Below the pieces are notes generated by a model. It worked only from the letters and a program-made list of their open reading frames with translations. It was not told the DNA's origin and did not search any database. Positions 3,386 to 56,837 of a stretch of DNA of 64,000 bases are shown here, piece by piece. The first letter of the stretch is position 1. Every line of letters starts with the position of its first letter. The DNA is from Prosopocoilus inquinatus (Eukaryota; Arthropoda; Insecta; Coleoptera; Lucanidae): positions 36,673,001 through 36,737,000 of the forward strand of contig CM069876.1 in NCBI GenBank assembly GCA_036172665.1. The letters are read 5' to 3'. The position numbers and the translations under genes are program-made.

Positions 3386-3411
3386 CTGAAAGTGCGTATA
3401 CGCACTTTCAG
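3386..3411. promoter_or_regulatory. 26 bp perfect palindrome before the transposase ORF
   Basis: CTGAAAGTGCGTATACGCAC followed by TTTCAG reads identically on both strands over 26 bases without a loop. It ends 14 bp before the ATG of the transposase at 3426. A binding site for the element's own protein or part of a sub-terminal repeat are possible roles; only the palindrome itself is seen. Confidence 0.55.
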
Positions 3412-3425
3412 AATTACATTTTGAA

Positions 3426-4471
3426 ATGGCTGATTTAGAAGCCAAAATGGAAGAATATTTATTGAACGTCAAAAGAACTATTCAAGAAGCTACGGTGCAA
3501 TTCATTTCAAAGTTATATAATAATGTTGGCTTGAATCGTAGTACTGTACAAGAGCTAATTCAGTATGTCAGGACATTTCTAGCACACAGTGGCATTAATA
3601 TTTTACAAGAATGTTTACAGTTGTTATTCAAAATAAAAAACCTACCTGTTACTAAAATAAATGACATGTTAAATTTATTTCGAGATCCGCTAGATAACTT
3701 TTCTTCTGAATTTAAAATTCTAAAATATTTTCAATCACACAATTTGTTAACCTACCCGACACCTTGCTTATTAGGTACTAATACTGATCGTACGTACAAA
3801 GATGGTGAAGTGACATTGATTTTAAAAAATAGATTTAGTTATTTTATTCCAATGCGACAAACTCTAAAATCTTTTCTAGAACTTCCTGGAGTGTATGCGG
3901 AAATTATGAAATTTTATAACGAGTTGATGTTGGTTGATACAGCCAAACCTGATAGCGTTATTTCCAATATTATTCAAGGTAAATTATGGAAAAACATTTT
4001 AAAAAAGCATGACTGCAATAAAATTGTTTTACCGATTGTACTTTATTTTGATGATTTCGAAATTTCTAATCCTCTAGGAAGTCGTGCAGGAGTATATAAA
4101 CTTGGAGGAATATATTTTAATATTCCATGTATACCAATTCAACATATAAGTAAATTAAATAATATATTTTTGGCTTTGCTTTTTTACAGTTCTGATAGAG
4201 TTTTATATGGAAATGAAAAAGTGTTACAAATAGTGATACAAGAATTAATTTTCCTAGAAGAAGAGGGAATTTCGCTTGTTATCGGAAATGAATTAACACA
4301 AATATATTTCTCATTGGTTTTGATTGTTGGTGATAATTTGGGTTTACATTCAATTTTTGGTTTGGTAGAATCATTTTCAGCTACACATTATTGTAGATTC
4401 TGTATTGGCACCAGAGACGATTTCAGACATCAAATTGTAGAAAACACATGTGCCTTACGAAAAATAAATGA
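3426..4471 (+). pseudogene. CACTA/EnSpm-like transposase, N-terminal part
   Basis: Residues 1-348 of a DNA transposase of the CACTA/EnSpm (CMC) kind. Visible hallmarks are the acidic block VLYFDDFEISNPLGSRAG (about residues 206-223) and IVGDNLGLHSIFGLVESFSA with a downstream CRFC knuckle (about residues 299-325). These contain aspartates expected of the RNase H-fold catalytic core. The frame is open from the ATG at 3426 until it enters the 607 bp insertion at 4472, where translation would run into unrelated sequence and stop at 4577. The frame resumes exactly at 5081. There is no decay inside the remaining frame, so disruption is recent. Family assignment rests on motif memory; a related CMC lineage is the main alternative. 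CACTA terminal repeats were not identified. Confidence 0.75.
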
Positions 4472-4524
4472 TTTTAGAAAAATTTTGTGCAAATCGTTTT
4501 TGATTGCAGTGAGAACCTCGAGCA

Positions 4525-4573
4525 GCCTCTGGACAGCTGTTTCAGCCCTGCTTGGGGCTTCTTCAGCAGAAAC
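4525..4573 (-). ncRNA. hammerhead ribozyme, copy A (minus strand)
   Basis: Read on the minus strand: stem I strand GTTTCTG (4573-4567), core CTGAAGA (4566-4560), stem II AGCCC/GGGCT (4559-4555 with 4548-4544), core GAA (4543-4541), three-base-pair stem III ACA/TGT closed by GC (4540-4533), C17 at 4532, then CAGAGGC (4531-4525) pairing back in stem I. All invariant positions of the hammerhead core are present; predicted self-cleavage is between 4532 and 4531. It differs from copy B at the variable core position 7 (A instead of C). The minimal stem III is like that of schistosome and Penelope-like hammerheads. Activity is inferred, not seen. Confidence 0.85.
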
Positions 4574-4842
4574 GTAGCTCGACATTCCCACTGCAGACCA
4601 AAAACGACTTGCCCAATTTATTCGCAATTGCGATGTAAGAGTGATGAACATATAAAATAGCGACATCTTACTATCGCTTTTCATTAGGAGCAAATCCCGC
4701 TTCAGTTTGTCTATCCTACTGCAATGTTAGGTCAAAAAGCGATAGTAAGATGTCGCTATTTTATATGTTCATCACTCTTACATCGCAATTGCGAATAAAT
4801 TGGGCAAGTCGTTTCTGGTCTGCAGTGGGAATGTCGAGCTAC

Positions 4843-4891
4843 GTTTCTGCTGACGAAGCCCCAAGCAGGGCTGAAACAGCTGTCCAGAGGC
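4843..4891 (+). ncRNA. hammerhead ribozyme, copy B (plus strand)
   Basis: Stem I GTTTCTG (4843-4849), core CTGACGA (4850-4856), stem II AGCCC/GGGCT (4857-4861 with 4868-4872) with loop CCAAGCA less its closing base, core GAA (4873-4875), stem III ACA-GC-TGT (4876-4883), C17 at 4884 and CAGAGGC (4885-4891) closing stem I with two G-U pairs. It is the inverted duplicate of copy A, so a transcript of either strand carries one ribozyme in sense. Transcripts across both arms would also fold into a ~200 bp duplex that competes with ribozyme folding. Confidence 0.87.
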
Positions 4892-5078
4892 TGCTCGAGG
4901 TTCTCACTGCAATCAAAAACGATTTGCACAAAATTTTTCTAAAATCTTTCATTATGCTTTGACAGCAAGCATGGCCGCCTTGCATGGGGGACTCATTAGG
5001 AGCAAATCCCGCTTCAGTTTGTCTATCCTACTGCAATGTTAGGTCAAAAAGCGATAGTAAGATGTCGCTATTTTATAT

Positions 5079-6052
5079 GAAAAATAAATGAATATAATGA
5101 TCATGTTACAAATAAACAATATGGTATTAAAAGTAATTGCATTTGGCACAATTTAAAATATTTCCATATTTATCAAAACGTGACTTGTGATATTATGCAC
5201 GATCTCTTTGAGGGTGTATTTCGCTATGATATGGCTCACATCATATCATATTTTATAAAAAAGAAATATATTACTTTAGATGTTTTAAATGCACGTATGA
5301 AGTATTTCGACTATTGTCCAAACTCGGAGAAAAATTTTCCATTTGTTAAGATGGAACAGTTGCAAAATAAATATATTTCAATCTCAGCCTCTGAAATGCT
5401 TACGCTGGCAACAAATTTTTCATTGTTCATAGGAGATTTAATACCTGAAAATGATTCTGTTTGGGAATTTTATTTGATATTACTTCAAATTACAGAATTA
5501 CTTATATCGTCTGCAGCGTCTTTAAATAAATGTAAATTATTGAAAACATTAATAACAGAACATCATAATTTATACATTTCCTTGTTCAAGGACGTTCTAA
5601 AGCCTAAGCATCATTTTATGTTACATTATCCAGAAATTATTTTAAATATTGGGCGTCTAGCAAACGTCTCATGTTTAAGATTTGAAGCTAAACATAGAGA
5701 ATTTAAAGCAAATTCGTCTACAGTAAGATCTAGAAAAAATATTATTTTTACGCTGTGCCTAAAAAATCAGTTAAAATTTTGTTATAGACTTATATCAAAT
5801 GAAACTTTAGAAAACATCGTCACGTATAGTCCTTGTCACCATCCTGATTTTTGTGACGTTCAAGAATTGCTTCCACAAGAACCATATAATTGCGTTTCAT
5901 GGTGTAAAATTAATGCAATTCGATATAGCAATGTAAATGTATTACTGTATGACACATTTCATGATATTCCTCAATTTTGTAAGATCTTATATATTTTCTT
6001 AGATGATAAGAGCAATGCAAGTTTTATTTGTCAATTACTAACAACAGTGTAG
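5079..6052 (+). pseudogene. CACTA/EnSpm-like transposase, C-terminal part
   Basis: Continuation of the transposase begun at 3426. After the second target-duplication copy, the frame codes for KINEYNDHV and is open to the stop at 6050-6052 (about 323 residues). Family motifs are DIMHDLFEGVF near the start of this part, the histidine-rich PKHHFMLHYPEII, and RFEAKHREFK followed by RKNI. Both halves together would give about 670 residues, a usual length for such transposases. The only visible lesion is the insertion at 4472-5078. The ATG-less start means this part is not separately translated from an obvious start codon. Confidence 0.75.
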
Positions 6053-12092: not shown

Positions 12093-14461
12093 TTATATCG
12101 GAGCACAAAACGTAAACTGAGACATAATCAAAGCTTCACACAGTTTTTTCTTTAACTCGACGTTTAGGTATGCTCTGTGAGGAAACAAAATCTTCAGACC
12201 GACATAGGCGTTACTGACACATTTAGTAATATGTTCCCTGTATCTAAAGGAATTATCTAATATCAGTCCAAGACTTCGAACCTTGTTAACTACTGGAATT
12301 TTAGTACCATTGATTTTTATGTCAAGAAGATTTATTAAATTATTGCAAATGGTATTATTACCGCAAAGTAATACTGCAGATTTATCAGGATTTATTATCA
12401 GAGAATGTTCACGAGAAATATCCGCTATATACCTTAAATCAGCATTAATATTTGATACCGCCTGCTGCCAACTTGATGATTGAAAACTGATATATAGCTG
12501 CGTGTCATCTGCAAACATTTGCGCTGTACAATACTTAAGACCATCAACAAAGGTTGACGTGTAAATGGAGAAGAGAGTGGGACCAAGTACCGAACCCTGA
12601 GGTACTCCTCTTGTAACGGGCAGTGAACCTGATGTCGAAGCGTCTAATTTAACAGCTTGAGTCCGGCCCAACAGGTAACTGCGTATCAAAGTAACTGCAT
12701 CACACGAGAGACCAATATAAGACAGTAATGAAATGAGCATATCGTGATTAACAGTATCGAAAGCTTTGCTGTAGTCGAGTAATATTAGGCTGTGATGTTT
12801 CCTTGGTCACAATTTCTCAACAAATCGTCGGTAACATTTAGTAAAGCGGTTGTACAGCTAAAACCAGCACGAAACCCTGATTGAACATCTGGCAGTACAG
12901 AATTGTCACTGAGAAATCTTCTTAATTGGCTGTTCAAAACCTTTTCGCACACTTTTGAGAGAATAGGCAGGAGGCTTATTGGTCGTAGATCTTTATACTG
13001 CATAGGAGATTTAACCTTAGGCAGAGGTCGCACTATAGCTTGTTTCCAAGGCATGGGGAAGGTGTTTTCAATAATGCAAGAGTTGATTATGTGAGTAATA
13101 AAGGGAATAATATAAGGAGAACAAAGCTTTATCATTTTAACGTCAATTCCATCACTACCAGCAGCATTAGATTTGAAGTCATTTAATATCTTTGTTATAG
13201 TTGGAGAGTCTACGATATTAAAATTAAAACTAATATTAGGATATTTCTTTGTGTCTTTGTACCGGCTCGCGTTATGTTGCAGGTTGGTATTGGAAATACT
13301 ATTTACATAAAAATCATTGATTGAATCTGCATTCTTTAGGTGATCCGGTATCAATGACACTTTATTGCGCTTTGCGCTTATGCGATTAAGCTCCTTCCAT
13401 AAACTTTTGCTGTTGGAATATTTAGATATAAATTCAAAGTAAGCTTTGCGCTCCTTCTTGAACGTAAATGTAGTAAGATTCCTAAGAGACTTATAATAAT
13501 TCCAATGTCGTGGAAGCTTTGTTTTTCTAAACTTAGCCTTTGCCCTATCCCTCAGAGTCATGAGAAGCTTCAGGTTGTCTGTTAGCCATGGCGTATATGG
13601 CATATTTGAATTTGCATAGTTTTAATGGTGCATGTACGTTAAATAACTCTACAATACAATTATTCAAAAAATCAACTTTCTTTCCTATGTCTGCAATCCC
13701 AAACATCAAATGTAACGGTAACAAATGTCGATCTCTATCAAAATCGGTTAAGTTGATGTTCGAAAAATTACGACACAAGTAACTTACTGGATTCAGTTTG
13801 CTTGGTGTAACTATTATGTTGCAAAAAATACAGTCATGATCCGACAGTGAACAGGAAATAACACCGGAATCTTCAATCAGGTCATCACCAGAGATAATAA
13901 ACAAGTCAATCAACGATAGCTTCGAAACAGTTAATCGAGTAGGTTCATTTATAACCTGAATAAGATTTAGAGATTCTAAAAAATTTGAAAAATACATTGT
14001 TTTAGGATCAGTAGAATTGCAAAAATCTATATTAAAATCTCCACTACAGAAAATTTTATCCGAATGTAACATGCACTGAGAAATTGAATTTTCAAATTCG
14101 TGAAGGAAATAAATGTAATCAACATGTGGTGGTTTATAAATGACTCCAAAACAAATTTATCAGAGGATACACTACATAATAACCACAACTGTTCTATATC
14201 GTTACATGTTTCTATAATGGTATACCGAATTGACTTACGTATGTAAATTCCGACTCCCCCTCCACGACTGCTTCGATCATTACGAACGAACGCAAAATTA
14301 TTTACTTGTAAAGCATCCGATGAAGTATCTGATTTCAACCAAGTCTCAGAGACGGCCATAATATCAAAATTGTTATTCAAAATAAATCTTTCGAGATCCG
14401 AAATTTTAGGTGACAAAGATCTAATATTAAGATGTCCTGCCTTGATGATCTTTTCTATCAT
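12093..14461 (-). pseudogene. LINE ORF2 (endonuclease + reverse transcriptase), frameshifted
   Basis: A non-LTR retrotransposon polyprotein in several frames. From 14461 downward it shows endonuclease motifs GHLNIRSL, AVSETWL and GGGVGIYIR, then after a shift near 14100 GDFNIDF and SDHDCI. After another shift near 13590, the reverse transcriptase follows: LRPISLLPILSKVCEK, SGFRAGFSCTTALL, a shift near 12790, DYSKAFDTVNH, GVPQGSVLGP and the catalytic FADD (about 12520-12503). The frame ends at 12093, apparently lacking the usual C-terminal tail. Motif style fits the CR1/L2/Jockey group; the exact clade is not resolvable by eye. At least three frameshifts make it non-functional. Confidence 0.88.
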
Positions 14462-14651
14462 TCTAGGAAATTAATGCTCATTTATACTTGTTTATTAACA
14501 GGAACACATACTCTCAAAGCTTGTGTAATTTACAAAACGAAAATAAGTATTTTGACGAAGAAATTTAGCAAAAAAATGAAAATTCCTAATTGCGCGCTTG
14601 ACAGCTACGAATTTGTAAGATCAGTACACTGTTGCTGACGAAAATAATTTA

Positions 14652-15017
14652 CTAGTGTATTAAACTAAGGTCACTAGAATTACTAATCTTATGTATTTTT
14701 TCCTCAAGTTTTACAAAAATTTGGCCGTTACTAGTAAATACCTTTCTATGTCCAAACTTCAGAACACATGATTTAACTAAGTTCATTCTCGCGGCCATTA
14801 AGTCCTCCCGGATAATAATTTTTGTTCCTTTGAACTTGCTTTTTGCATAAAATATTTTGTTTTTGACGCTGCGTCGACAAAACTTCACAATAATCGGCCT
14901 ACTGGAACCTTCACGACCTTTAAGCCTGTGACTGCAGTCAATCTCGGACGGTGAAATCGTTATGTTTAATTTCTCACGAAATAAATTCGAATTCCAGCCT
15001 GAATTCATGTGTCGCAT
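14652..15017 (-). CDS. LINE ORF1-like protein
   Basis: A 121-codon open frame directly upstream of ORF2, separated by 190 bp. The segment ITISPSEIDCSHRLKG, then RPIIVKFCRRSVKNKIF and GTKIIIREDLMAARMNLV, is the typical arrangement of the C-terminal nucleic-acid-binding domain of LINE ORF1 proteins (RNP chaperone function). It is shorter than a full ORF1, so the N-terminal coiled coil is probably lost or in another frame. Part of the same decayed element as 12093-14461. Confidence 0.65.
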   Translation of the reverse strand: MRHMNSGWNSNLFREKLNITISPSEIDCSHRLKGREGSSRPIIVKFCRRSVKNKIFYAKSKFKGTKIIIREDLMAARMNLVKSCVLKFGHRKVFTSNGQIFVKLEEKIHKISNSSDLSLIH

Positions 15018-15343
15018 TGTGAGTCCATCGCAAACGGTTTACGAATTGCTAGGTGACCTTGAAAATTCAAAATCTTAGAGCAAGTTGCGCTAGACTTCTT
15101 TGAATTGCGTTCAGTAAAATTATTTTCCTCATTTTAAAGTTGCAAAATGTGCCTTACGAAAAGAACGAAGTCAAAACAGAAGCTTATTACATTTTTTCCA
15201 GACGAACACCCTGTATATTATTGCATTTTTGCCTTCGCGAGTAAATTCTAGCCTGAGTTTGTGCGTCGCACTGTAGGTCTAGCGTGAACGGCGCACGAGT
15301 TAGGAGGTGACCTTGAAAATTCAAAATGTTAGAGCAGGTTTTT
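15003..15343. repeat. ~235 bp-period duplication at the LINE 5' end
   Basis: GTGACCTTGAAAATTCAAAA occurs at 15053 and 15308 in similar contexts (TGTGTCGCATTGTGAGTC / TGTGCGTCGCACTGTAGGTC before it). This looks like two 5' UTR monomers, as seen in some LINE promoters. The right edge near 15343 is taken as the approximate 5' end of the LINE. Confidence 0.5.
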
Positions 15344-18192: not shown

Positions 18193-18682
18193 AATTCAAT
18201 AGATGTTAAAGATCTTTTATAAGTGATATTTTATACACTATTTGAGAGTATAAAGGATATTTGGTAAGGAGTTACTGTTACAGCCTGATGAATAGGCCAC
18301 CCAAACAACATAGAGACGATGGCGGGAAATTTAAAACAGTTTACACTTTTAGTTAATAATAATAATAATTATTTATTTTTGCATGACACTGAAATCCTAA
18401 TTCGAATTCGGGGGTGCTCGGGGATAGCCAACGCATTCTTTATTTGAGCTTGTAATTTTTCCTGCATATTCCGCTTCCGTTCACACAACAAAAAGGCTCT
18501 CATCGATTCCGTACGCGCACGGACATAAATAAGGGTGAAAAAACAAGGAAACTACCGAGTCCATCGAATCGAATCCGGCCTCGAGCACGTATCGGCAAAC
18601 AATAGATTATAAAAGGACGAAGAAGATAAAAACGAGATGAGCAAATAAAAATGCAAATCCGCTGATGGAATCTGTTACTTAC

Positions 18683-18926
18683 GGCGGCTTCTCTCTCCGA
18701 ATTGATCATCAGCGAGGTCATGACCATGTCAGTCTTCTTGTTGACGAGATCCGCGATTAAACCGTTCCATTTGCCGTTCTCGTTCGTCCCCCAGCGACCA
18801 TCTTCCACCCTCACTAGTTCATAGGTGAAACCCAATTCTTCGGAAAATTTTTCCAGGAGGTCTATGCAGAAACCAGAGCAGCACTGGTAGAAGCTTCCGT
18901 TACGATGAGCCTGGGCTGCGTCCACT
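18683..18926 (-). CDS. NMDA receptor 2-type subunit, ligand-binding-domain exon
   Basis: A 244 bp exon; acceptor TATTCTAG|A at 18927/18926 and donor GCC|GTAAGT at 18683/18682. It codes (81 full codons) for [58 protein letters not shown] and [12 protein letters not shown]. This is the S1 glutamate-binding lobe, with the FCID-L and WNG-I / SL-IN-ER motifs of GluN2-type receptors. It splices in frame to the exon at 9271-9483. Upstream exons (amino-terminal domain, signal peptide) would lie at higher coordinates; none was recognised up to 64000. An open frame from 18949 extends into the intron and is not coding there. Confidence 0.93.
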
Positions 18927-20706
18927 CTAGAATAAAAGACAAACATCATTGGATCATCCCATCGAATTAAATTTGGAAAAAGTAAGTTAAATTCATTTCG
19001 AAATTTAGTATTTCAAAATTGTGCGACATCAAGATCGATTAGGCGTTTCAGTAGATCACGAAGCGTGCTTTGCACGGCGCTGCGTAAAAAATACATCGCA
19101 ACGGAATGTAAGCGTGTCATGTTTACTTGTTCCAATTAGGAAAGAGGCGGTTAGAGTGGCTTGCATAACACGAATTTAGGCAAGGCTTAATTGATGCTGA
19201 CAAATCTTGGAGCTTTCAGCTTTGGACCGGACCCTTCTCCCACCAAGGCGTAAACCAATTGGCGTAAAATTTCACGATGTTCAAACAAGGTAGGAAATGA
19301 GAGTAAGAATGAGTTAGCAGAGAAAATCAGAAATCAGTTGAGTAGAAGTTAGTAAAACTGAAGTTCGAATTATTTTGACACGTTTTCTTCTATTTGTATA
19401 ATATGATCGTCATTTGTTTTTTTTTCTTACTTTACACAGGATTTTTTTCATTTGTAGGGGATTTCTCGATTGTCACAAACGTTTTTAATTTTTTTAATTA
19501 TTTCAAATATTTCAGAAATCAAATAATTATTACGATTTTAAATTTAATAAACAAATTTAATAAACAAATTTAATAAACAAATTTAATAAACAAATTTTAA
19601 TTTTTCTGCTTAGATCGTGTTTCTGTATCTTTAAAATGTTCTTGTGTTTTTTTTGTGTGATTGTTTACTCTTTTTCTGTCTTACTCTTGTAAAATATAGC
19701 TATTATCTTTTGTTCCGAAGTAGTTGTAAAAATTTCCTGAGTAGCTTTTAAGTTTTAAGTTTTACGCACTCACACTGCAAATGAATGAAACAAAAAATAC
19801 ATGATAGTGTTTTCCATCTTTCTTTTTGTGTTTATTTTTATTATTTGTTTTCCTTTTTTCCTTTTTCGAATTATTATCTTGCAAGGCGTTAAGTTCCACT
19901 CTTTTTTTTTCTTTCGTACAAGTTGTTGTTTTTTTAAAATCATTTTCACATTCCGCATTCGGAAAATCGACGATCACCTTTTGTTTTTTGTCCACCAAGT
20001 GCTCGCTTCATGTTTTGATTTTATCTCTTCTTTTTTCTTTTGTTTCTGTTTGTCGAAATATTGTTTTAGAACGTGTTTTCTATTCTTATTCAATTATTTT
20101 ATTGAAGATTTTTAGTTTCAGTTTTTTCTTGGCATTTTTTAAATAATTTGTAAAAAGATCAGTTTTTTTTTTTTTTACAACTACGTCTATGTTTAAATAG
20201 ATTCCCACCACGTATCGACCAAATCAGTCAAATTTTAAATAATTTTCAAACCATTCGCTGGTCTTCTATTGTAGTTTTGAGTTTCTTTCGTATGTTGTTT
20301 TATTTTTTATTGTATTTGTTCTTCTTGCAGTCATTCTCAGTTTCTCGTTAGTTTTGTTAATTCGTTTTGTTTTAGCCGGAGAATCGTTGATTATCTTTTG
20401 TTTGGGCTTATCATCGTTTTTCCTGTTTCATGTCCCATTGATACAATTTTGCAATTTAATTTTTTGTTTACTTTCCTTTCAATTTTTTTTGACTTAAACA
20501 GCGTTTCACGTAATCGTTATTTTTCTTTATTTTTTCGTTCACCCTTTTGGTTACAATATTCTCCTTCATTTGTTCTTCCTGCAAGTTTTCTTCGCAGTTC
20601 GCTAATGTTTTTATTATTTTTACAAAATTGTTGATTTTATTTTGTTTATCTAACTTATTCTCATTTTGTTTGTTAGTTTCTTTTTTTCCGACGTATTCCA
20701 TTGACG
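18927..20706. other. T-rich non-coding DNA
   Basis: Mostly single-copy AT-rich sequence, becoming strongly pyrimidine-rich from about 19800. The open frames on both strands here (for example 19801-20146, 20398-20762) are low-complexity Phe/Leu/Ser or Lys/Asn strings and are not genes. Pieces such as GCCGGAGAATCGTTGATT near 20374 recur near 24240 (complement) and 28422, showing that it is an old degenerate interspersed repeat. Confidence 0.6.
19540..19596. repeat. 13 bp tandem repeat, about 4.4 copies
   Basis: AAATTTAATAAAC is repeated four times without interruption, then a partial copy. It is a simple minisatellite. Confidence 0.9.
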
Positions 20707-32881: not shown

Positions 32882-35800
32882 CAGTGGCGGCGATAAGATT
32901 TTGGGGGCCCCCCCGCCGTATTTACTCATACATGTGACTAAAATAAATATAACACCTAATAATAATACACGTAAATTAAAACACTTACTGCAATAGAAAC
33001 ATCAGGACAGCGCTGAACTGCCAAAACACCGTTGCTTTTGTTTCAAAAATTTGTCCACTAATTGTTCCAAGTTGAGTTCACAAGTACGTTCATGTTCAAT
33101 ACAATACAATAACACCCAAACCACTAAGCCTACCTTGGCTCATTGTACTACGCAAATAACTTTTTATTAGTTTTAATTTGGAGAATGTTCTTTCGGCAGA
33201 AACAGATGTCACAGGCAATGTTAAAAAAAGTTGAAATAATGAACAAATATCTGGAAGACTGCTCAAAATGCATCTGTTTTCTGGCTAATTCAGAAATAGT
33301 TTTAGTGGACATTTCATTGAAAAAGTACTTTTGAAGTTTATTAACTGCATAGACAAACCATCCGAAAAGTCATCTCCATATTTGTCTAATATTTTATTGG
33401 CATGTCCAACTATTTCATCATTTGATAGTTTAACGAACGTGTCTGGTTTTAAAAATGAAAAATTGCTCATTACTTCGTTCATTCTGGTAAATCGTGTTCT
33501 GAGCTGATTGATTAATATATCCAAAGATTCGTAAAATACTTTAATTTTAAATCTTTCTAAAGAATTTTCTATTTCAGTGTCCGCTGCCAGCTCATCAAAA
33601 AAAGTTTTGACTTTTCTTTGACGCTTAGATGTTGTTGGTTGAATATCCCAAGATTTCGCTAAATTGCTCGCTTGTCTATGTAATGCATCAAAATCATATC
33701 TAAGATTGGAAAAATGATCTATCGTGAAGTTCATTAATTCGCAGGCCCGATCCAGATCAACTGTAGAACTTTGCAGCAATTTAGATACTAAATTAATATT
33801 TTCCAAAACCTTACATTGGTATACAAGAAGCAAGATGAAATCATAAGTATTCATACGTTTTTGCAAAGAGTTTGCTTCTGTTCTGTCGGCCGTTTTTTTT
33901 GCAAATTAAAGTAAACGTTGACAAGCATTGCATCACACATTTATAGTTAATATATAGTCATCTAGCACTCAAACAATCAAACCGTGATGACCATCTTGTA
34001 GGACATAATCTCTTCAGAGTTTTTCTAATCATTCCAATTTCTTCTTTAGATTTGTTTAGCTCTTGCCAGCGCGGTAAACTTTGACTGAAAAACGAATATA
34101 TAGTTTCCACCAATCCGTAGAAATCTCTAATTTGACCAATATTTTGCACTGAATCATTCAATACTAGATTTAAATTATGTGCAGCGCAATGCACAAAATC
34201 TGCAGTTGGCACTTTTTCTTTTATTCTTGCCTGAAGTCCAGAATATTTTCCGCTCATGTTAGAAGCCCCATCGTACCCTTGACCTCTGCATTTTCTTATG
34301 TCAATTTTCATTTCATTCAATGTATTCAGAATTATATGTTCAAAATTTCTGGCACTTTGATCCTGTATTTCAATAAAACCGAGGAACGATTCCTTTATTT
34401 CTATTTTACCGCCGGCAACAGATTTATCAACGTTTAGATCGACGTTAACGTGGCGAATACATATGCTTAATTGATCCCTCTTCGAGATATCTTGCGTTGT
34501 ATCGACGATTATTGAAAAAAACGGCGCCTTAGAAATTTCACGAACTATATCTTCTATCACACATTTAGACATCAAGTTTATTATTTCATTCTGGGTATCG
34601 TGATGTAAATATTTGTTCCTATTGCTTTCATTTGTTATATGGGAGTTTAACAAAGCATCGGAACGTGACACCAAACCAATCATATTCAAAAAGTTGGCAC
34701 TATGAGGCCCTATTTCATAAACATTCTCGCGATGACCACGAAAGGGTAAATTGCAAACTGCTAAAGTTCGGATTGTATCAAAAATTCTTACCAATATTTG
34801 TTTGATAGTTTCATGCGATCCTTGAAGCAAATTTTCTAGTTTTGTTTTTTTCCCAAGATGTGTGTGCAACACATGCACGAAAATGAGCTGCACTTTCTTC
34901 ATGCGTTTTAATTTTTTTACTTAGGCCTTTCCAATAGCTAATGGTCCCGTCACACCATGGGTTTCTTGAATCCGAAAAAAGCCAGCAAGGTTGGCAGTAA
35001 ACTGCATTTAAAACTTGGGAATAGCATAACCAAAATCTTTCTATTTTCTGTTTAGCTTTAGTAGTAGTATAATAATATTCAACACTAAATGACCGATTTG
35101 TATGTACATTTCTAACAAACGGCCCAGTAGGTCTATTTGGACCTGCTGCAATAATTTTTCGCTTCATCTCATCAGATAGCTTGTCAGGAAAAAACGCCCT
35201 ATCTGTATTAAATAGAACTAATTCATTGTCATATACTGTGCTTATTTCTTGAATATCTAAATTTAATTCGCTTACAACAGAATTTTGTTCCTCAACTTCA
35301 ATTTCTGTAGACTCAAAGTTGGATTTTGAAGATGAAGCTTGACTAGCAAAATCTTCTTGACTCTTATTCTCGTTATCCTTTTCGTCCTGGTGTTCCTTTT
35401 GTTGCTGTTTATCTGTTTCACTTAATGTTTTTAAAAAACTGTCGATCTTAGGAAGCTTATTAATTGCTTCCAATTTTTCGATTTTAATTTTTCTTTTTCG
35501 AGCACCACTGAGGTACTGCCTACCTTTATCAGTCATTATTGTTAAGTTAAATTAAACACAATTACAAAACAAAAACCAACTCCACAAATACAGTTCAACG
35601 AGTCTGTTCGTCAACACCGATCGCCACTGAGAAATTAAACCAAAAGGGGTTGCGTTGCAAGTCAAACAATAATTAAAAGAAAACTAAAATTGTGTTATTG
35701 GGTACTGGGGTAGTCGTAAATAAACACGTGTTAATACAATGCTCTACATCCGGTGGTGCTTGGACGTGGCAGATGAAGGCAAAGCACAATAAATCTTTCT

Positions 35801-38037: not shown

Positions 38038-40219
38038 TAGAGACCGGATTTATAAGTTTTTACAAGTTTTTTACGCTAACATACCTAAACTTGGCGTTTT
38101 GTATTTATATGTTTGTCGATTAGAGAAGCCCAAAAATGGTAGTTTTATTTCGCATATAACTTAATATTTTAGACTTTTAGCGCATATTTATTTATTTATC
38201 CATATATTGATATAAATAACATTATAATTCCATATACGGTCAATATTCAAGTCTGCAGCTTTTCCAAGAAGTAATTTATTCTCCTCAACGTCTGGCCACT
38301 TTATTTTACGATTTCCCGGAATGTGATTTTCTGGGAATCTGTAGCGACTTGCACTTGCATTTTGCACTTATGTTTTGCATTTCAGTTTGAGATAAGAACT
38401 CCGTGAATGTGTGTGACTAGTGACTAGTGTATTTATCAACACGAATTAGTTGTTATTTTCTTATTTAATTTAAAGACGAAATAAATTCAGTGCTTATCTT
38501 TTCAAAATGCCGAAAGTAGCATCCTCTCGATCCGAGCTATTGAAAAAATGGATTAAAGCATCTAAACATCTAACTACAGATGGAAAAGTTATTTTTTGCA
38601 ACGCATGCTCAAAACAGGTAGATACCTTACAAATTCTCTTAAAAATCACATTTTCATTTTGACAATATTTTAAGGTGTCGTCAGACCAAAAGTACCAGAT
38701 TGATCAACATTTGGCTACAAACCTCCATAAGGAGTCGGAGAAAAGATGTGTGTCTAACTTTAAGCAGTCTTTTATTTCTTCAACAGCCAGTAACTCACAG
38801 GGCAGTGACACAGGAAATGAATTCTTTTTAGACTTGTGCAGTGCTATGGCAGAGTCAAACATTCCTTGGCATAAACTTGAACAAGCAAGTTTTCGAACTT
38901 TTTTGGAAAAATATTGCAATCGTCATATTCCAAATGAATCGACTTTGCGGAAAAACTATCTAAGTATATGCTACCAGCAACGGATGAAGAAAATAAGAGA
39001 GAAGCTTAGCGACAACAATATTTATATAGTAGTTGATGAAACGACATATGCCTGCGGTCGTTATGTAGCAAATATGTTAGCAGGAGTATTAAGCAACACA
39101 GTTGCACCAATATCTTATTTGGTAAATAGTGCAGTTTTGGAAAAAACAAATCATTCAACGATCGCACGTTTTATTAACGACAGCTTGACACTTTTATATG
39201 CACCTAATCAAGTTAAATCGGAAAATATATTACTAATGGTGTCTGATGCAGCAGCCTACATGATAAAAGCAGGACAGGCTTTACAGGTGTTTTACCCAAA
39301 TCTGATGCACTTCACTTGTATGGCTCACGCAATGAATAGGCTCGCTGAATTGGTGCGACTAGAATACCCAACAGTAAATAAGTTGATCAATAACGGAAAA
39401 AAGGCGTTTCTTAAAGCCCCACTGCGTATACAACACTATAAAGAATTAGCTGCTGACCTGCCATTACCACCAGAACCAATAATTACGAGATGGGGTACGT
39501 GGCTTGAAGCAGCAAATTTTTACGCAGATAACTTTAAACAATTAAAGGAAATTTTCTTAGAATTGGATGATTCCAATTCAGCGGCTTTAAGAATTTGTAA
39601 GGAATGCATGTCGAACACAAACATCGGGAATCAATTAGCATTCATTAAAACTCATTTTTCGGTTTTAATATCCACCATTAAAAAGTTGGAATCATCCCAG
39701 ACGGCTCTATTAGATTCTTTTGAAGTGGTCGATGATGCAATTGAAAGTGTAAAATCAATTCCAGGGGAGATAGGAGAGAAGTTAATGGCAAAATTAGACA
39801 AGGTTCTATTACGTAATCCTGACTACAATAAAATGAGGAAAATCTGTTTAGTTTTAAAAGGTCAAAGTGAAGAGGATTTGGACATGGACCCCAAAGATGT
39901 AGCATCCATGAAATTTGCGCCCATTACTTCATGCGATGTCGAGCGTTCGTTTTCCTCTTATAAAAATATTTTGACAGACAAACGACAAAATTTTACCCCA
40001 AATAATTTAAATCAACTGTTGATTATATTTTGTAATCCTACTACTTAAGTGTTAAGTGTTAAAATTACTTATATGAAACAATTTATGTTTTTATTATTCT
40101 AAAGTATGTATAAGTAAAATAAAATTTTTATCGCATATAATATCCATATTTTGATCCATTTTAATCGCATAAAAAAAACTTATTTTCCACTTTTTTAGCA
40201 CATATAAATCCGGACTTTA
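38038..40219 (+). mobile_element. apparently intact hAT element (2182 bp) in a Ly6 gene intron
   Basis: Perfect 8 bp target duplication CTTATAAC (38030-38037 and 40220-40227). Terminal inverted repeats TAGAGACCGGATTTATAAG on the left and TAAAGTCCGGATTTATATG on the right (complement). It encodes one spliced transposase with no visible lesion. It lies only 46 bp upstream (in gene orientation) of the splice acceptor of the Ly6-like exon at 37991, in the opposite orientation to that gene. Fresh ends and an open frame argue for a recent and possibly still mobile insertion. Confidence 0.93.
38507..40048 (+). CDS. hAT transposase with BED-like zinc finger (CGGBP1-like)
   Basis: Two exons: 38507-38617 (37 codons, starting MPKVASSRSELLKKWIK) and 38675-40048, with a 57 bp intron (CAG|GTAGAT...TTTTAAG). 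The zinc finger FCNACSKQ...H...H spans the splice. Catalytic-core motifs: IYIVVDETTYACGRYV, LLMVSDAAAYMIKAGQAL, FTCMAHAMNRLAELVR and TRWGTWLEAA. The C-terminal dimerisation part is SCDVERSFSSYKNILTDKR. Total about 494 residues, a normal length for this family, which includes the transposase ancestor of vertebrate CGGBP1. No stop or frameshift is seen. The enzyme would bind the element's ends and excise and reinsert it in the nucleus. Confidence 0.88.
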
Positions 40220-55938: not shown

Positions 55939-56311
55939 TAGCGCAAGTTTTAACAAGGGCTGCCACAACCACCAACGGGAATATTAAAACGTAACAGTTT
56001 CAAAGTTTTAGTTTTTTCGTCGCGTAAGTTTCATTTTCTGGAAAATTTTCGTCTTTTTATTTTTATCTTTTGCATCCTTTTCAAAAATTCAGTTTAAATC
56101 TACGTCTGTATATTTTACATTTTACTATTAAAATCAAAAAAAATATAATAACTAATTTTTTCATCGTATTTATTTGTTGTTGTCTGTTAAGAGTTTAATT
56201 CTTTGGAAAATTTCGGCTTCTTTATTTAACTTATGTACTATCCTTTTCTAAAGTTTATTTTAAATTTATGTCTGTATATTTTATACTTTATTGTTAAAAA
56301 ATTTTGTTGCT

Positions 56312-56362
56312 TAGGCAATATTAGGTTAAAAAGCGGTCGTAGGATGTCGCTGTTTTATTTAT
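56312..56362 (+). repeat. fragment of the ribozyme element's 3' end
   Basis: GGCAATATTAGGTTAAAAAG then GTAGGATGTCGCTGTTTTAT matches the end of the insertion at 5029-5078 (GCAATGTTAGGTCAAAAAGC, GTAAGATGTCGCTATTTTAT) with several substitutions. It ends in TTTATTTATT. This shows the element family is dispersed and older than its 4.5 kb copy. Confidence 0.7.
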
Positions 56363-56837
56363 TTATTGTTAAAGTAAAAAGAAAACTCAAGAAAAAAAAA
56401 TTTTCAGTTCATTTGATTTATTCGTGACATGATGTAATAGATTTTCCCTTACTCTGTGGCTTTTTCTTCCATTCGTGTTTTCCTGCGTTTTTATTTTCCA
56501 GTTTTTTAGGAATTTCATAAATCTCTTCTATTTTATCTATCCACTACGCTCTGTTTCAACTTTCAGTCGTAAGCTGAGTAAAAAGTGTAACATTATTCTT
56601 TCTTAAGCATTTTTTTGTTTACGACATTTACCTTTTTTAGTGATGCGTTTTTTTCCTTCAATGTAATAGTGTCATGTTTTTTTGCTTCTTTATATTCTGT
56701 TCCTTTGTCTTTCTTTTATATTCTAAACTGTTTGATACGTAACGTTTTTTTTTGAACTTTACTTTTTCATTTATTTATTTTTTTATCACGAACAATGTTT
56801 GTTTTTTTCTCTTGGTTTTACTTTCAAGAGGTATTTT

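Follow-up and report, generated by a model that had tools for sequence, protein, structure and literature searches.

Why should a short ribozyme-bearing element lie in a genome as two opposed arms, and which enzyme placed it there? These questions are raised by a 607-bp insertion at positions 4472-5078 of the window, the 64-kb stretch of DNA analysed here (C8:36673001-36737000 of the 650-Mb genome of Prosopocoilus inquinatus). The insertion lies between perfect 13-bp direct duplications, GAAAAATAAATGA, at 4459-4471 and 5079-5091, the right copy being identical to the left at 13/13 positions. It splits a transposase-like gene on the plus strand. The 5′ part (3390-4471) is an open frame with no Pfam match of its own, and the 3′ part (5092-6052) matches the Plavaka transposase family weakly (21.4 bits, below the Pfam cut-off of 26.3); the two share one frame when the insertion and one duplication, together 620 bp, are removed, and the host frame continues beyond. 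Two transposase paralogues, L151 (C5) and L152 (C12), are 97% and 95% identical to the left flank of the window, respectively. Since each of them holds a single, uninterrupted GAAAAATAAATGA with matching flanks (26/28 and 27/28 on the left, 28/30 and 30/30 on the right), across which the sequence reads straight, an empty site exists. An earlier note, made from the letters of the window, had described the insertion, its duplication and the resumption of the host frame, all of which are confirmed.

The insertion consists of two arms in opposite orientation. The left arm (4472-4681, minus strand) corresponds to an antisense cDNA of 0.67 unit and begins at a start site designated B (unit coordinate 4944). 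The right arm (4682-5078, plus strand) runs in the sense direction for 1.28 units and ends at a second start site designated A (unit coordinate about 4769), so that this copy has its B end on the left and its A end on the right. The arms overlap by one base at 4681. A complete retrozyme unit of 312 nt at 4681-4992 (plus strand) provides the coordinate frame for all copies and is followed in the right arm by a partial second unit at 4993-5078 (plus strand). The sequence contains an inverted repeat of 219 nt with 98% complementarity (4463-4681/4735-4953) and a direct repeat of 87 nt with 100% identity (4681-4767/4993-5079). The earlier note had counted the latter, a direct repeat of the 3′ end, as part of an unusual architecture, but it is simply the right arm going more than once round the unit. 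The left arm is identical to the family majority at 210/210 positions and the right-arm stretch 4682-5079 at 396/398; as the right arm differs from the majority at two sites and the left arm at none, the window copy is young. The GC content of the window retrozyme is 44.6%. We found no open frame of at least 120 aa within 4472-5078, nor any reverse transcriptase (RT) or GIY-YIG frame in the 607 bp.

Each arm carries a predicted type I hammerhead ribozyme, at 4512-4582 on the minus strand (core from 4566, predicted cut after 4532) and at 4834-4904 on the plus strand (core from 4850, predicted cut at 4884/4885). The descriptor used for the search comprised CTGANGA, stem II, GAAA, stem III, TH and stem I. 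The motif is complete in both arms, with CTGANGA, a 5-bp stem II, GAAA, a 1-bp stem III, a palindromic AGCU loop, GUC and stem I; the two differ at the free position, which gives CTGACGA in the right arm and CTGAAGA in the left. The hammerhead cores that had been reported in the two inverted arms are the only two descriptor matches in the 64-kb window, and 100 synthetic windows generated from a dinucleotide model gave none on either strand. The core was exact in 109/119 sampled units and fitted a looser form in 113/119. The whole genome contains 11,263 exact cores, 5585 on one strand and 5678 on the other, and 0 copies of the reversed core, which served as a control; the core pattern had no match in viral_contigs or genome_contigs. 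The covariance-model check named in the earlier note came out at background level: Rfam returned nothing at gathering scores over the whole window, and by E-value the Hammerhead_HH9 model reached 14.5 bits (left arm) and 14.4 bits against a cut-off of 52. The best Rfam matches by E-value were microRNA models fitted to the inverted repeat and were rejected. The available parts of PMC7229834 describe animal ribozymes in which stem III is a single base pair and the tetraloop is palindromic. Our ribozyme call rests on the descriptor, the conservation of the core and the likeness to these animal ribozymes, and the activity is predicted.

By its anatomy, the window element is an animal (non-LTR) retrozyme. 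The available parts of the description of these elements (Cervera and de la Pena, 2020; PMC7229834) report type I hammerheads with a 1-bp stem III and, in amphibians, a palindromic loop, units of 170-400 nt in tandem copies, a GC content below 50% and target duplications of >4 bp. The window family likewise has a predicted hammerhead in each unit, a tandem unit of 312 nt and duplications of >4 bp, with Rfam scores at background. Self-cleavage and circular RNA were shown for the published elements, whereas here they are predicted. Plant LTR retrozymes resemble the window element in being non-autonomous and ribozyme-bearing and in having circular RNA (PMC4918200, parts available), but differ from it in type III hammerheads located in LTRs, 4-bp duplications and Gypsy-type mobilisation, as described in the same parts of PMC7229834.

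A genome search yielded both further copies, in large number, and tandem multimers, as the earlier note had anticipated; together with the near-identity of the window arms to the family majority, this agrees with its reading of a recent, non-autonomous, ribozyme-bearing retroelement. In this young family the 312-nt units lie in tandem in arms of 0.3-6.1 units that are often unequal in length, and in the first locus set an antisense array was followed by a sense array in 19/20 loci. The matches listed contained 39 clusters, 32 of which, chosen as the best matches to the window, were examined by sequence. Thirty of the 32 were head-to-head, and L021 and L047 were single-armed. Every one of the 30 head-to-head insertions had one A end and one B end (B on the left in 17, A on the left in 13). 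The A ends fell at 4762-4771 in 29/30 (mode 4769) and the B ends at 4936-4947 in 29/30. As this sample came from the best window matches, a second one was taken by position, namely 17 pairs of opposed cores at 1.66-6.94 Mb of C1, with four opposed-core clusters (near 1.21, 2.42, 6.93 and 7.03 Mb) left out as ambiguous or too far apart; 17/17 had one A and one B end. In total, all 47 scored head-to-head retrozyme insertions were A/B, and A/A or B/B never occurred.

Several copies mark the margins of this count. The weakest member counted, L014, has a right arm of 86% identity, an A end at 4788 and no convincing duplication; L008 is also weak, with a 7-bp duplication, and L036 contains an extra piece of 56 nt at its centre. 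The cluster at C6:46994235-46995677 was considered as an A/A exception and rejected: its right end is A, but its left arm continues through A and past B. This cluster, whose outer end lies beyond the sequence examined, is outside the counts, as are C6:23531929, C7:19992886 and C13:776733, which look like one A plus one B from query coordinates alone, and C5:39185499, C7:5403086 and C8:6881352, which show a single direction among the matches listed.

Duplications of at least 9 bp were present in 28/30 insertions of the best-match sample (median 12), the remaining two being 5 and 7 bp and possibly due to chance, and duplications of 12-14 bp in 16/17 of the positional sample. Inverted repeats commonly cause misassembly, and the inverted structure might be an assembly artefact or a DNA-transposon-like inverted repeat. 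We regard this as scarcely conceivable, given duplications of at least 9 bp at 44/47 scored insertions, the presence of empty sites, and arm lengths and centres that vary. An exact GTT directly outside the duplication was found on 17/56 sides, compared with 0-4 at the other 20 offsets. GTT is enriched on both sides and, read outward, gives AAC-N12-GTT. This placement fits an endonuclease that would cut 5′ of GTT on each strand and leave 3′ overhangs.

Among known elements, Penelope-like elements (PLEs) with a GIY-YIG endonuclease are a close parallel. In the available parts of Arkhipova et al., 2013 (PMC3846280), they have head-to-head pLTRs, a 31-bp tail that is optional on one of them, and AT-rich targets. 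In our genome search for GIY-YIG frames, 150 of 2232 candidate places were scored; most of the scored places had one score, and many were paired, minus then plus. One family, PLE-1 (L070), encodes RVT_1 and GIY-YIG in a single frame. Its relatives carry PF00078, PF01541 and PF26215, the last of which we take to be a domain typical of PLEs, and those named by organism are insects and one springtail, including Tribolium (51%), Aromia (54%), Molorchus, Aedes and other mosquitoes; both statements refer to 120 of 693 relatives listed. Downstream of the PLE-1 frame we read a hammerhead-like core whose stem III is a single base pair and whose loop, ACGU, is palindromic. Beyond it lie the end sites of the element, X at about L070:2007 and Y, 39 nt away, at about 2046. 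This core occurs 19 times in 15/20 loci (L051-L070), the other five being other families, and no Rfam family matched the end of PLE-1.

PLE-1 copies lie as head-to-head pairs, at least one cluster being three-armed (C2:41411689-41418268 and others). We fetched 40 of at least about 47 pairs among the matches listed, two of which (L107 and L141) were left unscored as one end was absent from the fetched stretch. All 38 scored pairs had one X and one Y end, with duplications of 11-16 bp. Several copies retain long open frames, and the arms compared differ by 0-6 substitutions in about 500-960 bases; from these two features PLE-1 looks recently active. Loci L053, L055, L056 and L061 belong to a second, diverged PLE-like family, which could be a helper candidate too, and at L056 it adjoins frames that give the impression of Polinton structural proteins.

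Thus, the opposed arms are the usual insertion form of both the retrozyme family and PLE-1, and not an accident of template switching, which the earlier note had offered as one possibility. The finding of that note is real and the core of its interpretation right, and its explanation of the architecture is the part that changes. The insertion signature of PLEs, in which the arms lie head-to-head and one of the two is extended by a tail, was seen in 47/47 retrozyme and 38/38 PLE-1 insertions scored, and different paired ends in 85/85 of the two families together. Exact GTT stood outside the PLE-1 duplication on 14/76 sides (0-6 at other offsets), and the flank profiles of the retrozyme and PLE-1 had a correlation of 0.87 when aligned in register, compared with no more than 0.69 when shifted out of it. 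The window insertion looks PLE-like in its insertion form, yet it is not an autonomous PLE: its start sites are 137 nt apart (B to A), as against 39 in PLE-1, and it has no enzyme frame.

Twin priming yields inversions in LINE copies, and the inverted arms could derive from such an event, or from one-sided priming followed by a snap-back (self-primed) second strand. Self-priming on an antisense template was indeed proposed for the head-to-head pLTRs of rotifer Penelope copies (Arkhipova et al., PMC3846280, parts available). A snap-back strand would copy the first cDNA and should have the same outer site and a similar arm length, whereas the ends differed in 85/85 insertions and retrozyme arms are often unequal; twin priming at random internal sites would leave no second fixed end. 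As 85/85 insertions in two families follow one rule, mobilisation by a PLE is favoured and self-priming disfavoured, and we consider both the snap-back and the twin-priming route very improbable. Pairs of different ends are what a single RNA with two start sites, one used on either side of the cut, should produce, and they are not expected from self-priming.

Two-sided insertion by another retroelement of the genome, such as a LINE, would give the same form. LINE-like RT frames can be read at 12093-14470 in the window, and the retrozyme unit showed no DNA similarity to PLE-1 at E values up to 1 in the 20 loci L051-L070, which would suit an enzyme other than that of a PLE. The agreement between PLE-1 and the retrozyme, the two families compared, in head-to-head form, paired ends, duplication length and GTT makes this explanation improbable. 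The sole match in the similarity search was rejected, being a retrozyme copy beside a different GIY-YIG gene at L052 (C4:3829287 region); this copy, at 2006-2467, lies a few hundred bases from an exon that we named SLX1-like from its translation. Stem-loops 5′ of the start sites, compared with shuffled sequences, gave z values of -2.8 for A, -2.2 for B, -0.3 for X and -1.2 for Y. A stem-loop is clear at A and weaker at B, and X and Y are no better than shuffles; we claim no shared structure. Given this lack of DNA similarity, the candidate helper is either PLE-1 or a sister family of equal endonuclease specificity. The lack also speaks against the PLE reading, as it offers no means by which a PLE would recognise the retrozyme RNA, and the partner may be a PLE of another family.

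The arms also bear on the RNA template. A linear monomer cut by the hammerhead would start at 4885 and limit the cDNA to 60 nt (0.19 unit) from B and to 197 nt (0.63 unit) from A. All 30 A arms and all 30 B arms exceed these limits. The inner ends, placed by exact extension and approximate where near private mismatches, are spread evenly round the unit (KS p=0.64), 1/60 being within 5 nt of the predicted cut compared with 2.1 expected. As all 60 measured arms pass the predicted cut site, the template was circular or uncleaved. The circular RNA intermediate suggested in the earlier note fits these data but is not proven by them, as an uncleaved RNA fits too.

Variants present in at least two insertions were used to compare the two arms. 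Their sharing between both arms reached a score of 16, compared with a permutation mean of 3.9 and a maximum of 10 in 2000 permutations (18 variants), a result in favour of a single template, or a single type of template, behind the two arms of an insertion. By case, 31 were in one arm only and 16 in both, and 112/117 variants private to one insertion were confined to one arm. Within multi-copy arms, all copies carried the variant in 9 cases and part of them in 29. These counts tell against a simple picture of one circle; later mutation, which is not separated here from template differences, can account for them, and copying of a single circle is not proven. The excess of arms with the variant in part of their copies speaks for an uncleaved tandem transcript as the template of the same two-sided mechanism, the hammerhead being incidental to insertion, and such a multimer explains the 60/60 arms crossing the cut site equally well. 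In support, the dominant template of the anole PLE in vitro was unprocessed RNA, and ribozyme mutations had no effect on insertion (PMC11167929). In contrast, multimers are predicted to be cut given the exact core in most units, and animal retrozymes accumulate as circular and linear monomers in the available parts of PMC7229834. On balance, we hold an uncleaved template to be possible but doubtful. The arms overlapped at the junction by at least 2 nt in 13/24 usable junctions (null, 16.7%), 6/30 having been dropped for mismatches beside the junction.

We therefore consider it likely that the window element, an animal-type retrozyme by anatomy, was inserted by the RT and GIY-YIG endonuclease of a PLE, through target-primed reverse transcription on both sides of the cut, with a single RNA copied from two fixed start sites. 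In the proposed cycle, transcripts of tandem copies would be cleaved by the hammerhead at 4884/4885 and the resulting monomer circularised. A PLE protein, which is plausibly dimeric, would then cut each strand 5′ of GTT, with about 12 bp between the two cuts, to leave 3′ overhangs. Both 3′ ends would serve as primers for cDNA on the RNA, starting at B (about 4944) on one side and at A (about 4769) on the other. Synthesis would run for a fraction of one turn up to six turns, the two cDNAs would join at random points, often with at least two matching bases, and fill-in would produce a duplication some 12-14 bp long. The genome directly shows the ends of the elements, their duplications and motif, the arms with their junctions, and the variants that arms share; the enzyme, the circle, the ribozyme activity and the order of steps are what we infer from them.

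This scheme resembles the anole PLE in vitro, for which both strands are cut and extended, two adjacent internal RNA start sites are used and a dimer is predicted (Frangieh et al., 2024; PMC11167929). In the anole element the start sites bear no relation to the DNA that is cut, and the tail corresponds to the stretch of RNA from one start site to the other. However, that assay found no difference in start site between the strands, whereas each insertion scored here uses both sites, one per arm. PLEs were named as strong candidates for moving animal retrozymes, and a curation guide states that retrozymes may rely on PLEs (PMC7229834 and PMC8969392, respectively, parts available). Mobilisation by PLEs has therefore been suspected in print before, and the present counts are a quantitative genomic signature for it. 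The paired A/B ends, the head-to-head arms, the GTT motif and a PLE with the same signature in the same genome are not described in the available parts of PMC7229834, the main text of which contains the words "inverted" and "opposite" 0 times. A literature search that included few subscription papers found no report of the pairing rule or of head-to-head retrozymes, and an earlier partial statement is possible; the insertion rule, and its sharing by a retrozyme and a PLE in one genome, appear to be new. The rule bears on which enzyme moves animal retrozymes and on why Penelope copies are head-to-head. It may with about equal chance prove right or wrong that PLEs and their parasitic retrozymes represent a distinct form of retrotransposition, in which the staggered, palindromic cut is the work of a dimeric enzyme and a single RNA (in retrozymes, a small circle made by the ribozyme and copied by rolling-circle reverse transcription) is read from two obligatorily different internal start sites, one per side, into two cDNAs at once.

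The window also holds a probable older miniature copy of 63 bp (56299-56361, plus strand) between 12-bp duplications, TTTATTGTTAAA, at 56287-56298 and 56362-56373. Some 10 nt of the B end, in antisense, come first in it, and a stretch of some 50 nt then runs to the vicinity of A; the B-end match is weak alone, as 2.2% of random 16-mers of the window match equally well. Short or diverged partial retrozyme matches of 85-97% were seen at L040, L042 and L044, and short aborted insertions may be common. Elsewhere in the window, we read a LINE-like RT in pieces (12093-15038, minus strand) and a frame resembling part of an ionotropic (NMDA-type) glutamate receptor (18500-19012, minus strand). Pfam matches identified the remains of mobile elements encoding a DUF4371 protein (33285-35551, minus strand) and a DUF659 protein (38663-40048, plus strand).
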